Part shown: piece after piece, positions 1 through 52,488 of the stretch | Layout: each line of letters opens with the position of its first letter | Position numbering within the stretch: position 1 is the stretch's first letter | Assembly (NCBI RefSeq): GCF_016592155.1 | Contig: NZ_AP024237.1 | Coordinates: 2,170,001-2,234,000 of the forward strand | Direction of reading: 5' to 3' | Length of the DNA: 64,000 bases | Source: Mycobacterium heckeshornense | Lineage (GTDB): Bacteria; Actinomycetota; Actinomycetes; Mycobacteriales; Mycobacteriaceae | The notes under the pieces: generated by a model | Databases searched by the model: none | Told to the model about the DNA's origin: nothing | What the model saw: only the letters and a program-made list of their open reading frames with translations | Position numbers and translations under genes: made by a program

Positions 1-992
1 GCTACATCACCGCCGAAAAGATCAAGTCCACGGTCGCCGGCTACTCCGACAGTCCCAGCGACGAGGCGTTCTCCCGGATGTTCGAGCGCGACAAAAGCGA
101 ATTGCGTGATCTCGGCATCCCGTTGGAGACCGGCAGGGTGTCGGCGCTGGACCCCACCGAGGGTTATCGCATTAACCGCGAGGCCTACGCGCTACCTACC
201 GTCGAGTTGACCCCTGAGGAGGCCGCCGCGGTGGCGGTGGCAACCCGGTTGTGGGAGTCGCCGGAACTGATCACCGCAACCCAGGGTGCGTTGCTCAAAC
301 TGCGTGCGGCCGGAGTGGACGTCGACCCCGACGCCCCGGTCGTGATTGCCTCGACCACCGGGCTGCCGGGCCTGCGCGGTTCGGAGAACGTGCTGGGGGT
401 GCTGTTGGCGGCCATCGAGGCCGGGCAGGCCGTGCAGTTTCCGCACCGGCCGTCGCGCAGCGAGCCCTACACCCCCCGCACCGTCGAACCGTGGGGGGTG
501 GTGACGCAGAAGGGCCGCTGGTATCTGGTCGGGCATGACCGCGACCGCGACGCCACCCGCGTGTTCCGGCTGTCCCGGATAGGTGCCGAGGTGAAGCCGA
601 TCGGTCCGGTCGGCGTCGTCGTTCGGCCTGAGGGTGTCGACCTGCGCAAGATCGTTGCCGAGACCGTGGCCGAACCAATGACCGGTGCGCAGGCGCAAGT
701 GTGGGTGGCCGACGGGCGCGCCATGGCGTTGCGGCGTGCCGGCAAATCCCTGGGGCCACGGCGATTGGGGGGCCGTGACGGCGAGGTGATCAAACTCGAC
801 ATCGGATCCAGCGACCGACTCGCGCGTGAGATCACCGGCTACGGTGCTGACGCGGTCGTCCTCGCGCCGGCGTCGCTGCGAGACGACGTACTGGCCCGCC
901 TGCAGGCCCAGGCCGTTCGGCGAGGAGCGGCGCCGGTGACGCGCGCCGGCGACGATGCAGAGCGACGCGATGAGGAGGAGCGGCGCCGATGA
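1..992 (+). CDS. pafB: PafB, WYL-domain transcriptional regulator (5' partial)
   Basis: Subunit of the PafBC regulator, which in mycobacteria activates DNA-damage genes independently of LexA. The reading frame is open from base 3; the start codon and part of the N-terminal HTH lie before the window. About 329 residues are visible, including the family's YITAEKI segment at the edge and the WYL core (WGVVTQKGRWYLVGHDRDRD, then RVFRLSRI). The last ~18 residues before the TGA at 990-992 are encoded by the first copy of a 53-bp repeat, giving an unusual Arg/Glu-rich tail. The gene is followed by pafC through a chain of overlapping stop/start codons. Identification is by family resemblance and by synteny with Rv2096c. 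Confidence 0.95.
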   Translation, partial: YITAEKIKSTVAGYSDSPSDEAFSRMFERDKSELRDLGIPLETGRVSALDPTEGYRINREAYALPTVELTPEEAAAVAVATRLWESPELITATQGALLKLRAAGVDVDPDAPVVIASTTGLPGLRGSENVLGVLLAAIEAGQAVQFPHRPSRSEPYTPRTVEPWGVVTQKGRWYLVGHDRDRDATRVFRLSRIGAEVKPIGPVGVVVRPEGVDLRKIVAETVAEPMTGAQAQVWVADGRAMALRRAGKSLGPRRLGGRDGEVIKLDIGSSDRLAREITGYGADAVVLAPASLRDDVLARLQAQAVRRGAAPVTRAGDDAERRDEEERRR

Positions 993-1255
993 CGCGCGCC
1001 GGCGACGATGCAGAGCGACGCGATGAGGAGGAGCGGCGCCGATGACGCGCGCCGGCGACGATGCAGAGCGACGCGATGAGGAGGAGCGGCGCCGATGACG
1101 CGCGCCGGCGACGATGCAGAGCGACGCGATGAGGAGGAGCGGCGCCGATGACGCGCGCCGGCGACGATGCAGAGCGACGCGATGAGGAGGAGCGGCGCCG
1201 ATGACGCGCGCCGGCGACGATGCAGAGCGACGCGATGAGGAGGAGCGGCGCCGAT
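938..1255 (+). repeat. MIRU-type minisatellite, six 53-bp tandem copies
   Basis: Six head-to-tail copies start at 938, 991, 1044, 1097, 1150 and 1203 and look identical by eye. The unit contains GAGGAGGAG, a strong ribosome-binding sequence, then CGGCGCCG and an ATGA stop/start overlap. Size, sequence style and position inside an operon match mycobacterial interspersed repetitive units (MIRU). Copy number is likely to vary between strains. Confidence 0.93.
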
Positions 1256-1257
1256 GA
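989..1257 (+). other. Chain of five overlapping 18-codon mini-ORFs
   Basis: Five identical mini-ORFs, at 989-1045, 1042-1098, 1095-1151, 1148-1204 and 1201-1257, each encode [18 protein letters not shown]. Each begins in the ATGA that ends the previous frame and has GAGGAGGAG about 8 bases upstream. The first start overlaps the pafB stop and the last stop overlaps the pafC ATG. Ribosomes could therefore pass from pafB to pafC by re-initiating five times. Whether the peptides accumulate is unknown; this may only be a coupling device. Confidence 0.7.
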
Positions 1258-6399: not shown

Positions 6400-7179
6400 A
6401 TGAGCGGACCGCAGGGATCCGACCCCAACCAGCCGTGGCAGCCGCCAGCCCAGGGTGAGGAACACCAGGCCACCGGTGGTGACCAGCCAACGGCGCAGGC
6501 GTCGTCGCCGTGGCAGCAGCCCGCTGGAGATCAGTCGACCTGGCAGGCGCCGGCGTACACGTCCTCGGAATACCCGCCATACCAGCAGCCGGCAGGGCAG
6601 TTCTATCCGCCGTATCAGCAGACGATGCCGGGCTATGTGCCGCCCGATCAGTACGGGCAGCCGACGCAGTACGGACAGCCGACCCAGTATGGGCAGCCCG
6701 GTCAGTACGGCCAGCCCACCCAGTATGGGCAGCCCGGTCAGTACGGCCAGCCCACCCCGTACGGACAGCCGGGTCAGTATCCGGGCCAATACGGTCAGCC
6801 CCAGTTTCCGGGCCAGTATGGTCCTGCGGGCGAGGGCTCGAAGCGCTCGACGGCGGTGATCGGCACCGTGGCCGGGGTGTTCGCCGCGATCGTGGTCGCG
6901 GTCGTGCTGGTGCTGGGTTTTTGGGCGCCCGGATTCTTCGTCACCACCAAGCTGGACATCAACAAGGCGCAGGCCGGCGTGCAACAGATTCTCAGTGACG
7001 AGACCAACGGGTACGGCGCGAAAAACGTCAAGGACGTCAAATGCAACAACGGCCAAAACCCCACGGTCAAAAAAGGTGCAACCTTCGACTGCGAGGTCAG
7101 CATCGACGGCACCAAGCGCCAGGTGACGGTGACCTTCCAGGACAACAAAGGCACCTACGAGGTCGGTCGACCCAAGTAA
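6400..7179 (+). CDS. DUF4333 membrane protein with Gln/Tyr/Pro repeat N terminus
   Basis: 259-residue single-pass membrane protein similar to Rv2091c. Residues 1-145 are low-complexity, rich in Gln, Pro, Gly and Tyr, with about ten QYGQP-type repeats. A membrane helix follows ([20 protein letters not shown], ~150-180). The C terminus is a compact DUF4333 domain outside the membrane with two Cys ([15 protein letters not shown]) that could form a disulfide. The ATG at 6400 has an upstream AGAGGA. Function unknown; related mycobacterial proteins combine such disordered tails with DUF4333. Confidence 0.85.
6650..6800 (+). repeat. QYGQP-coding tandem repeat with exact 36-bp duplication
   Basis: 18-base units encoding QYGQPT/G repeat through this part of the DUF4333 gene. 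The segment 6685-6720 is duplicated exactly at 6721-6756, suggesting recent expansion by slippage; the frame is preserved. Confidence 0.85.
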
Positions 7180-51705: not shown

Positions 51706-52488
51706 TTAGCGCTTCCGGCGAGCCCTGACCCGCTTACTGGCCGTGTCCGCCAATTCCTCGCCGCGCTCCCGGGCGGTTTCGGCGAACTCGGTGCCGCGCT
51801 CCCGGGCGGTTTCGGCGAACTCGGTGCCGCGCTCCCGGGCGGTTTGGACAAGTTCGGCGCCACGCTTGCGGGCGGCCTCCACCAGGGGGGCGCTCTTCTC
51901 TGCCGCCGCGCTGGCCAGTTCCCGGCCTCGTTCGGCCCCAACCTGCAGACCGTGTCCGATTTTCTCGCCTAAACCCTCAGTGTCCAGCAAGGTTCCGTTG
52001 GACCCGCTGATCGGCAGCGCCGCGGTCACCGCCTCGGAAATGCGGCCTGCCGCCCGCCGACCGCGCCATCCCAAGGAGGGTTTTCCGGCCGTGTCGGCCG
52101 ACGCGATGAGCAATCCGCCCAGCAGGCTCAGGTCGGTCAGGAAGTTCCGCCGCTTCTCGGCTTTGCGCTGCGGATCTGGCTCAGTCCAAAACATATGCGC
52201 GCCAAGGCTCCCCGGGATTACCGTGCCTGCCAGCAGAGCGGACGCGATGCGGGGGAGCTTGCCGGTCGCGAGCAGAACGCCGCCGCCGACCTGGACGGCC
52301 GCGTTGATGCGTGCGAACGTCTCGTCGTCGGAGGGCACCTTGGTACCGATCGGCTCGGGCAGTTTACGCAGACCCGCCGCGGCGGGGCGCGCGGCGTCGA
52401 CGGCCGCGCTCGGGTTTCGCAACGTCTCTACACCTTGGCCGATGAACACCGCTGACAGCAGCGGCCGGGCAATTCTGCGGATCAGCAT
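51706..52488 (-). CDS. DoxX-family membrane protein with 11-residue repeat tail
   Basis: 260 residues. Residues 1-~150 are a DoxX-like four-helix membrane domain (RRIARPLLSAVFIGQGVETL, QVGGGVLLATGKLPRIASAL). The C-terminal ~75 residues divide into seven 11-residue units such as AARKRGAELVQ and TARERGTEFAE, forming a continuous charged amphipathic helix like those of apolipoproteins or LEA proteins, ending in ARRKR. ATG 52488 (MLIRRIARPLL). The tail may lie along the membrane or bind another component; function unknown. Confidence 0.85.
   Translation of the reverse strand: MLIRRIARPLLSAVFIGQGVETLRNPSAAVDAARPAAAGLRKLPEPIGTKVPSDDETFARINAAVQVGGGVLLATGKLPRIASALLAGTVIPGSLGAHMFWTEPDPQRKAEKRRNFLTDLSLLGGLLIASADTAGKPSLGWRGRRAAGRISEAVTAALPISGSNGTLLDTEGLGEKIGHGLQVGAERGRELASAAAEKSAPLVEAARKRGAELVQTARERGTEFAETARERGTEFAETARERGEELADTASKRVRARRKR
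51760..51858 (-). repeat. 33-bp tandem repeats in the DoxX gene
   Basis: The units at 51760-51792 and 51793-51825 are identical; 51826-51858 is diverged. Each encodes one 11-residue repeat (ARERGTEFAET register), indicating recent in-frame duplication. Confidence 0.85.

Follow-up and report, generated by a model that had tools for sequence, protein, structure and literature searches.

The junction between pafB and pafC in this genome holds six tandem copies of a 53-bp MIRU, through which the end of pafB is joined to the start of pafC by an unbroken series of overlapping stop and start codons. Comparison across the genus indicates that two different repeats have probably entered this one operon junction on several occasions, both of them keeping the hand-over from one gene to the next. 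We think it probable that a MIRU landed at the pafB-pafC overlap, expanded there, and is tolerated as a frame-proof relay. What is observed is the anatomy of the array, the recurrence of inserts at this place, and a relay that nearly all of those inserts preserve. How ribosomes pass along the array is a matter of weighing several readings, and a tolerated, frame-proof passenger is more likely to suit the data than a phase switch.

Anatomy of the array

The window is the whole 64,000-nt stretch of DNA analysed, taken from positions 2,170,001-2,234,000 of a genome of one contig and 4,957,188 bases. The 3' part of pafB occupies 1-992 of the plus strand in the ORF list with its TGA stop at 990-992, the gene starting some 60 bp before the window begins, as judged from the whole ORF read in L328. 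On the same strand the ORF list gives pafC at 1254-2225 with its ATG at 1254. Pfam finds HTH_PafC, WYL, and WCX domains in pafC, and WYL and WCX in pafB scanned from window position 78 on; NCBIfam returned no match for pafB or pafC. Six 53-bp units fill 937-1254 of the plus strand (937-989, 990-1042, 1043-1095, 1096-1148, 1149-1201, and 1202-1254), all identical in this register. Tandem Repeats Finder (TRF) on the window reports a period of 53, 6.4 copies, and 99% matches over 922-1258, its array start coinciding with a MIRU 3'-tail fragment at 922-936 (plus strand) that precedes the first full unit. The preliminary description had counted six identical 53-bp units at pafB-pafC, which TRF and the register check bear out, with the first unit lying within pafB: it is entirely inside the gene and supplies its last 17 residues, after a GTG at 936.

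The pafB stop falls within an ATGA at 989-992, from which 5 plus-strand mini-ORFs follow at 989-1045, 1042-1098, 1095-1151, 1148-1204, and 1201-1257, each encoding the same 18 residues, with Arg, Asp, and Glu abundant among them, the first sharing its ATGA with the pafB stop and the stop of the fifth overlapping the pafC start. The chain consists of 7 ORFs and six 4-nt ATGA overlaps, all of them within the range, from -4 to +3 nt between stop and start, that is expected for termination-reinitiation. GAGGAGGAG, the Shine-Dalgarno (SD)-like site of pafC at 1237-1245 (plus strand), belongs to the last unit and recurs in every unit, and GAGGAGGAGCGGCGCCGATGA has 6 exact occurrences and a further one at 919-939 with 3 mismatches, the average over 100 shuffles being 0.01. 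The 5 identical mini-ORFs linked by ATGA overlaps, the site in each unit, and the chain of coupled starts had all been proposed beforehand from the letters, and as anatomy they are real.

Long minus-strand ORFs across the array were set aside as a side effect of a G+C-rich repeat that lacks in-frame stops, and a known structured RNA was dropped as a candidate after an Rfam search of 700-1500 gave nothing up to E = 1. Elsewhere in the window there are an 18/36-bp tandem repeat at 6634-6779 (CAGTACGGGCAGCCC...) and a 33-bp tandem repeat of 3.5 copies at 51759-51875, whose period is divisible by three.

The unit is a MIRU

The unit of the array is a MIRU, as had been suggested. A two-unit query has at least 48 matches in its own genome, merging to at least 40 places, both lower bounds, since scoring covered 40 of the 110 candidates from a first look. 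The place most useful for identification is L009, where three 53-bp units, about 90% identical over 2 units to the pafB-pafC array, are flanked by genes with HisKA/HATPase_c and Response_reg/Trans_reg_C domains, i.e., a sensor kinase and a response regulator. From their sequences we take these genes to be senX3 and regX3. The senX3-regX3 operon is the archetypal MIRU site, in which MIRUs were first described. In the genus at large, a 33-base MIRU core with up to 2 mismatches is present in 157 of 396 genomes, and a reversed control pattern scored 0 in every row.

How often a MIRU forms a relay was asked of these places by an automated test, which 19 of the 40 own-genome places pass and 21 fail. 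The test is lax, since at L018, L024, L317, and L319 the mini-ORF is not clearly that of the MIRU; by reading, 15 of the 40 relay through the MIRU's own ORF, senX3-regX3 among them. A similar and somewhat stricter test is passed at the chance level by 40 of about 4,000 random window positions. In other genomes of the genus, 9 of 28 scored MIRU loci pass and 19 fail (30 loci were taken, 2 of which were missed by the pattern and left uncounted). With 21 of 40 places failing at home and 19 of 28 scored loci failing elsewhere, MIRUs are not confined to relays.

Some copies depart from the common form. L017, L019, L023, L028, L320, and L323 belong to a MIRU-like subfamily whose ends are rich in G+C (GCCCGG...CCGGGC in most copies) and which fails the relay test; some of its own-genome copies start directly after a gene's stop codon. 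At L018 (1803729-1803784 of the genome), the MIRU is in frame with the downstream gene, presumably nucleoside diphosphate kinase, and forms an N-terminal extension (VTRADDDAERSDEEERR...TLLLIKPDA).

Stop/start overlaps in MIRUs had been described to us as known, and they are indeed in print as a -4 coupling: according to a 2025 review (PMC12548453), start codons are where MIRUs insert, and the MIRU ORF becomes coupled to the gene at that start with -4 nt spacing.

The pafB-pafC junction across the genus

pafC was matched in 386 of 396 genus genomes, and the junctions examined are the 150 best-scoring of these 386 places, a sample that leans to nearer relatives. A bare stop/start overlap joins the genes at 128 of the 150, as ATGA in 99, GTGA in 25, and TGATG in 3 by script, to which reading adds L256 with a direct overlap in TGATGA. 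The other 22 carry an insert, and in 20 of these an unbroken relay leads to pafC by way of one to five mini-ORFs, such that the coupled architecture, direct or through mini-ORFs, is kept at 148 of the 150 junctions examined. The relay is broken at L154, where ATAG replaces ATGA, and at L156 in genome G251, where three 54-bp MIRU units run in frame into pafC. The relay can thus be dispensed with, as pafC persists in both genomes. If translation at L156 began at the pafB stop, PafC would be lengthened considerably at its N terminus.

Reading sorts the 22 inserts into three groups: 13 are MIRUs, 8 are repeats of a 35-bp type, and L194 is neither. Mapped on a tree of pafB (148 rows, 2 short ones omitted), presence of a MIRU requires 10 changes and presence of the 35-bp repeat 7, gains and losses being pooled. 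The relay units at the inserts measure 20, 35, 47, 50, 53, 56, 77, and 101 nt; a unit length of 3k-4 follows from the construction of a relay, and L244 ends in TGATG instead. The keeping of the relay at inserts may partly reflect their youth.

The second repeat, CAGCGAGTAGCGAAGGCGGATCGCGCATGA, has a period of 35 in most of the listed tandem copies. Allowing up to 2 mismatches it occurs in 94 of 396 genus genomes, the control pattern in none, and at that threshold it was not found in the window's own genome. It too (...GGCGGATCGCGCATGA) sits at stop/start overlaps, 16 of 19 scored loci passing the relay test (20 loci, L291-L310, with one unmatched by the script), a count to be read with the fact that the search pattern ended in ATGA and so favored the 3' overlap. 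Its representatives at pafB-pafC are L150, L167, L236, L261, L272, L273, L281, and L283. L150 is a 56-bp relative of the 35-bp repeat, and for the kinship of L150 and L167 with that repeat, 0 of 2,000 shuffles score as high. Aligned with MIRU, the 35-bp repeat is matched in score by 163 to 341 of 2,000 shuffles. By this comparison of sequences it appears to be different from MIRU, with distant kinship possible.

Copy number and reading frame

A unit of length 3k-4 preserves the hand-over however many whole copies are present, and in silico the pafB-pafC relay is always intact with 0 to 9 whole units. The array is thereby frame-proof toward its own expansion, which makes tolerance a better reading than an ON/OFF switch. 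Phase variation by frame is rejected on these grounds, and the phase-variation-like dial put forward in the preliminary description is not supported. Changes of 1 nt, by contrast, mostly break it. Single 1-nt deletions across the 20 relay inserts leave the relay in 123 of 1,594 cases, and indels in the window array leave it in 248 of 1,044 cases at 1 nt, 95 of 1,044 at 2 nt, and 959 of 1,044 at 3 nt, the random insertions in these trials being unseeded, so that counts may shift slightly on repeat.

Copy number differs between species, represented by one genome each. The nearest sampled relative, G186 (PafC 96%; L142), has no full unit and just a 17-nt 3' tail before pafC, G060 (PafC 91%) has neither unit nor tail, and G359 (PafC 87%) has 2 units, compared with 6 full units here. 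G186 may have lost all the units between 2 tails, or the lineage of the window may have expanded its array beside an old tail. Such tails are found beyond G186: at least 13 of 16 MIRU-tail bases are matched by 4 of the 128 bare junctions versus 0.04% of shuffles, with L142 (G186) and L168 (G338) matching all 16, and at least 15 of 18 bases of the 35-bp-repeat tail are matched by 7 of the 128 versus 0 of 25,600 shuffles, both frequencies being compared without correction for the relatedness of the species. In L142, L168, L195, L269, and L280, pafC is preceded by no more of a repeat than all or most of its 3' tail, as if the SD and start part had remained.

How pafC may be reached

In the explanation that we favor, a MIRU, habitually found at stop/start overlaps, would have landed in the 4-nt overlap of pafB and pafC and would then have expanded to 6 tandem units. 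Each unit brings an ORF of 19 codons, stop included, less the 4-nt overlap (57 - 4 = 53 nt), together with GAGGAGGAG and a terminal ATGA. A ribosome finishing pafB could restart at the overlapping ATG and then do so 5 times more, reaching pafC. Gain and loss of units would be tolerated, since every whole number of them keeps the hand-over. We infer that ribosomes use the relay with a small loss per step, leaving the array mostly a passenger and the PafB:PafC ratio little changed. Precedent for the individual step is given by passages reporting strict coupling at 13 of 14 overlapping gene pairs in 2 model organisms (PMC6728339) and an overrepresentation of RTGA-coupled small ORFs in mycobacteria (PMC4633059). 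In the consulted part of a study of pervasive translation in M. tuberculosis (PMC9094748), nothing was found on MIRU or coupling.

An unlikely competitor is that the last unit acts as a portable ribosome-binding site, with new ribosomes at GAGGAGGAG (1237-1245) doing most of the translation of pafC, and the mini-ORFs and the 5 other units standing idle. The last unit does supply a strong SD-like site, so pafC may start without the relay. Pairing with the anti-SD is stronger at the 13 MIRU junctions (mean -10.6 kcal/mol) than at the 128 bare ones (-8.0), at a Mann-Whitney p of 6e-5 uncorrected for relatedness; the tail-only junctions L142 and L168 look as though the tail were the part retained; and L154 has lost the relay and still has pafC. 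What independent starts leave unexplained is the keeping of frame and overlap in 20 of 22 inserts. At the 9 non-MIRU inserts, moreover, the SD is not clearly stronger (mean -8.6, p = 0.36), and the relay is kept in all of them. The predicted openness, as the unpaired fraction, is 0.27 for the SD region of pafC versus 0.63-0.71 for the mini-ORF starts.

The idea of a dial survives the loss of the switch in a graded form, in which each relay step loses ribosomes and the number of units sets PafC:PafB, tuning the DNA-damage response. A graded effect of this kind would require loss at every step of the relay. In its favor, the number of units does vary among close species, from 6 here to 0 in G186 (PafC 96%) and 2 in G359 (87%). 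The notion of differential translation within an operon is credited to Supply 1997 in passages of PMC2734929, which also report a correlation of fpg1 mRNA with repeat length in M. tuberculosis strains, and PMC12817950 describes promoter repeats in that species whose copy number is phase-variable. Against it, 128 of 150 genomes have no insert, meaning that the dial is not a conserved feature. In the portions consulted of the PafBC literature, the protein is a heterodimer whose level is constant under DNA damage and which is switched by binding of single-stranded DNA (PMC11804915), pafBC is co-transcribed with pafA in M. smegmatis (PMC5656591), and PafB and PafC are fused in some actinobacteria (PMC6789036). 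Taken together, these properties suggest a need for the 2 proteins at 1:1 and little use for a dial. We regard the dial as possible and do not favor it, our estimate being that it is quite improbable. The same low expectation attaches to a broader proposal, that stop/start overlaps of operon genes are a niche for 3k-4 relay repeats, taken up by at least two of them, MIRU and the 35-bp repeat, in different parts of the genus, with the steps at pafB-pafC, where both would land repeatedly, setting the PafC share and the strength of the DNA-damage response.

The array might alternatively act as RNA. The ends of the units, which in an array meet around each ATGA, would pair into a G+C-rich hairpin with ATGA in its loop. 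Such a hairpin would prevent new starts and leave pafC dependent on an arriving ribosome, or it would serve as a processing site. The 6-nt ends of MIRUs are often complementary and change together, as in GCGCCG/CGGCGC, GCGGCG/CGCCGC, CCGCCG/CGGCGG, and GCGCTG/CAGCGC. Copies with complementary, covarying ends are seen in L001-L030, L111-L140, L311-L327, and others. The main subfamily provides 26 arm pairs. In these, both sides have changed at 9 paired cells, compared with a shuffle mean of 3.5, a level reached by 7 of 5,000 shuffles (by none when the second subfamily is included), and the total of paired cells is reached by 74 of 5,000. Minimum-energy folds place AUGA in a loop at the 5 mini-ORF starts, and for one junction the surrounding 53 nt fold with z = -2.0, with 8 of 200 shuffles as stable. 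The energy excess is modest, however, and the covariation is inflated by related copies and includes one arm pair out of register, which comes from the window's own array. In the register used for the main subfamily, the 8 arm pairs of the second show no excess (2,528 of 5,000 shuffles are as high), the hairpin stem is shorter at the pafC start, and the complementary ends could instead be the trace of element movement. The hairpin ends may matter for coupling or for element movement, and we hold it very improbable that they account for the array.

A promoter in the array giving pafC its own transcript is set aside as barely credible, there being zero TA dinucleotides in the 317 bp of array checked, hence no -10 box, whose consensus is TANNNT, and no sigma-70-type site in the array on a scan of 700-1500, the single site found there, with 9 of 12 matches, lying inside pafC at 1435-1462. 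The pafABC genes are, further, reported as co-transcribed in M. smegmatis (PMC5656591); the proposal has its model in intergenic senX3-regX3 MIRUs, which according to passages of PMC4213456 can drive regX3 alone.

Novelty and comparison with known systems

The coupling of MIRU ORFs and the idea of expression set by copy number are old. The site at pafB-pafC is new, in that the literature searched held no paper uniting pafB, pafC, and a variable-number tandem repeat (VNTR), nor one joining MIRU with a 53-bp translational overlap. For the 35-bp repeat and for the complementary ends of MIRUs, a limited literature search found no earlier description, and no priority is claimed. The part worth following is the comparative pattern of 2 different frame-proof repeats at one junction. 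It makes the 3k-4 length rule testable across a genus, and it provides a natural test of serial ribosome restarts, with 1 to 6 of them between the same 2 genes, whose products must pair.

Like the archetypal MIRU, the unit described here is of the 53-bp class, dispersed and tandem, with a small ORF in the direction of its neighbors and a 4-nt overlap at both ends. It differs from the archetype in its site, pafB-pafC, and in having the first unit inside the upstream gene, and at 6 units the array is the longest read among the at least 40 MIRU places of its genome. The VNTRs of M. tuberculosis that have been linked to expression (fpg1, and the dop and lpdA promoters) resemble it as tandem repeats directly upstream of a gene with numbers differing between relatives, but those papers deal with mRNA levels or promoter repeats, and the present array is within an operon, frame-proof, and devoid of a promoter-like motif. 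Among mobile elements, the nearest likeness is to the MITE-like repeats of bacteria (ERIC, RPE, and those of Yersinia), which, as presented in passages of PMC2229807, are small and mobile, some with ORFs and complementary ends; these are about 100-200 bp and give in-frame fusions, in contrast to the stop/start relay of the pafB-pafC MIRU. The RTGA-coupled small ORFs, so far as the consulted part of PMC4633059 describes them, share with the mini-ORFs the joining of a small ORF to the next gene by RTGA, but are chiefly in leaderless transcripts upstream of a gene, whereas here they are repeats between 2 genes. Finally, the 6 ATGA junctions, each with an SD-like site upstream, have the form of ATGA termination-reinitiation coupling, which comprises one step; judged from its sequence, the pafB-pafC array would place 6 such steps in series.
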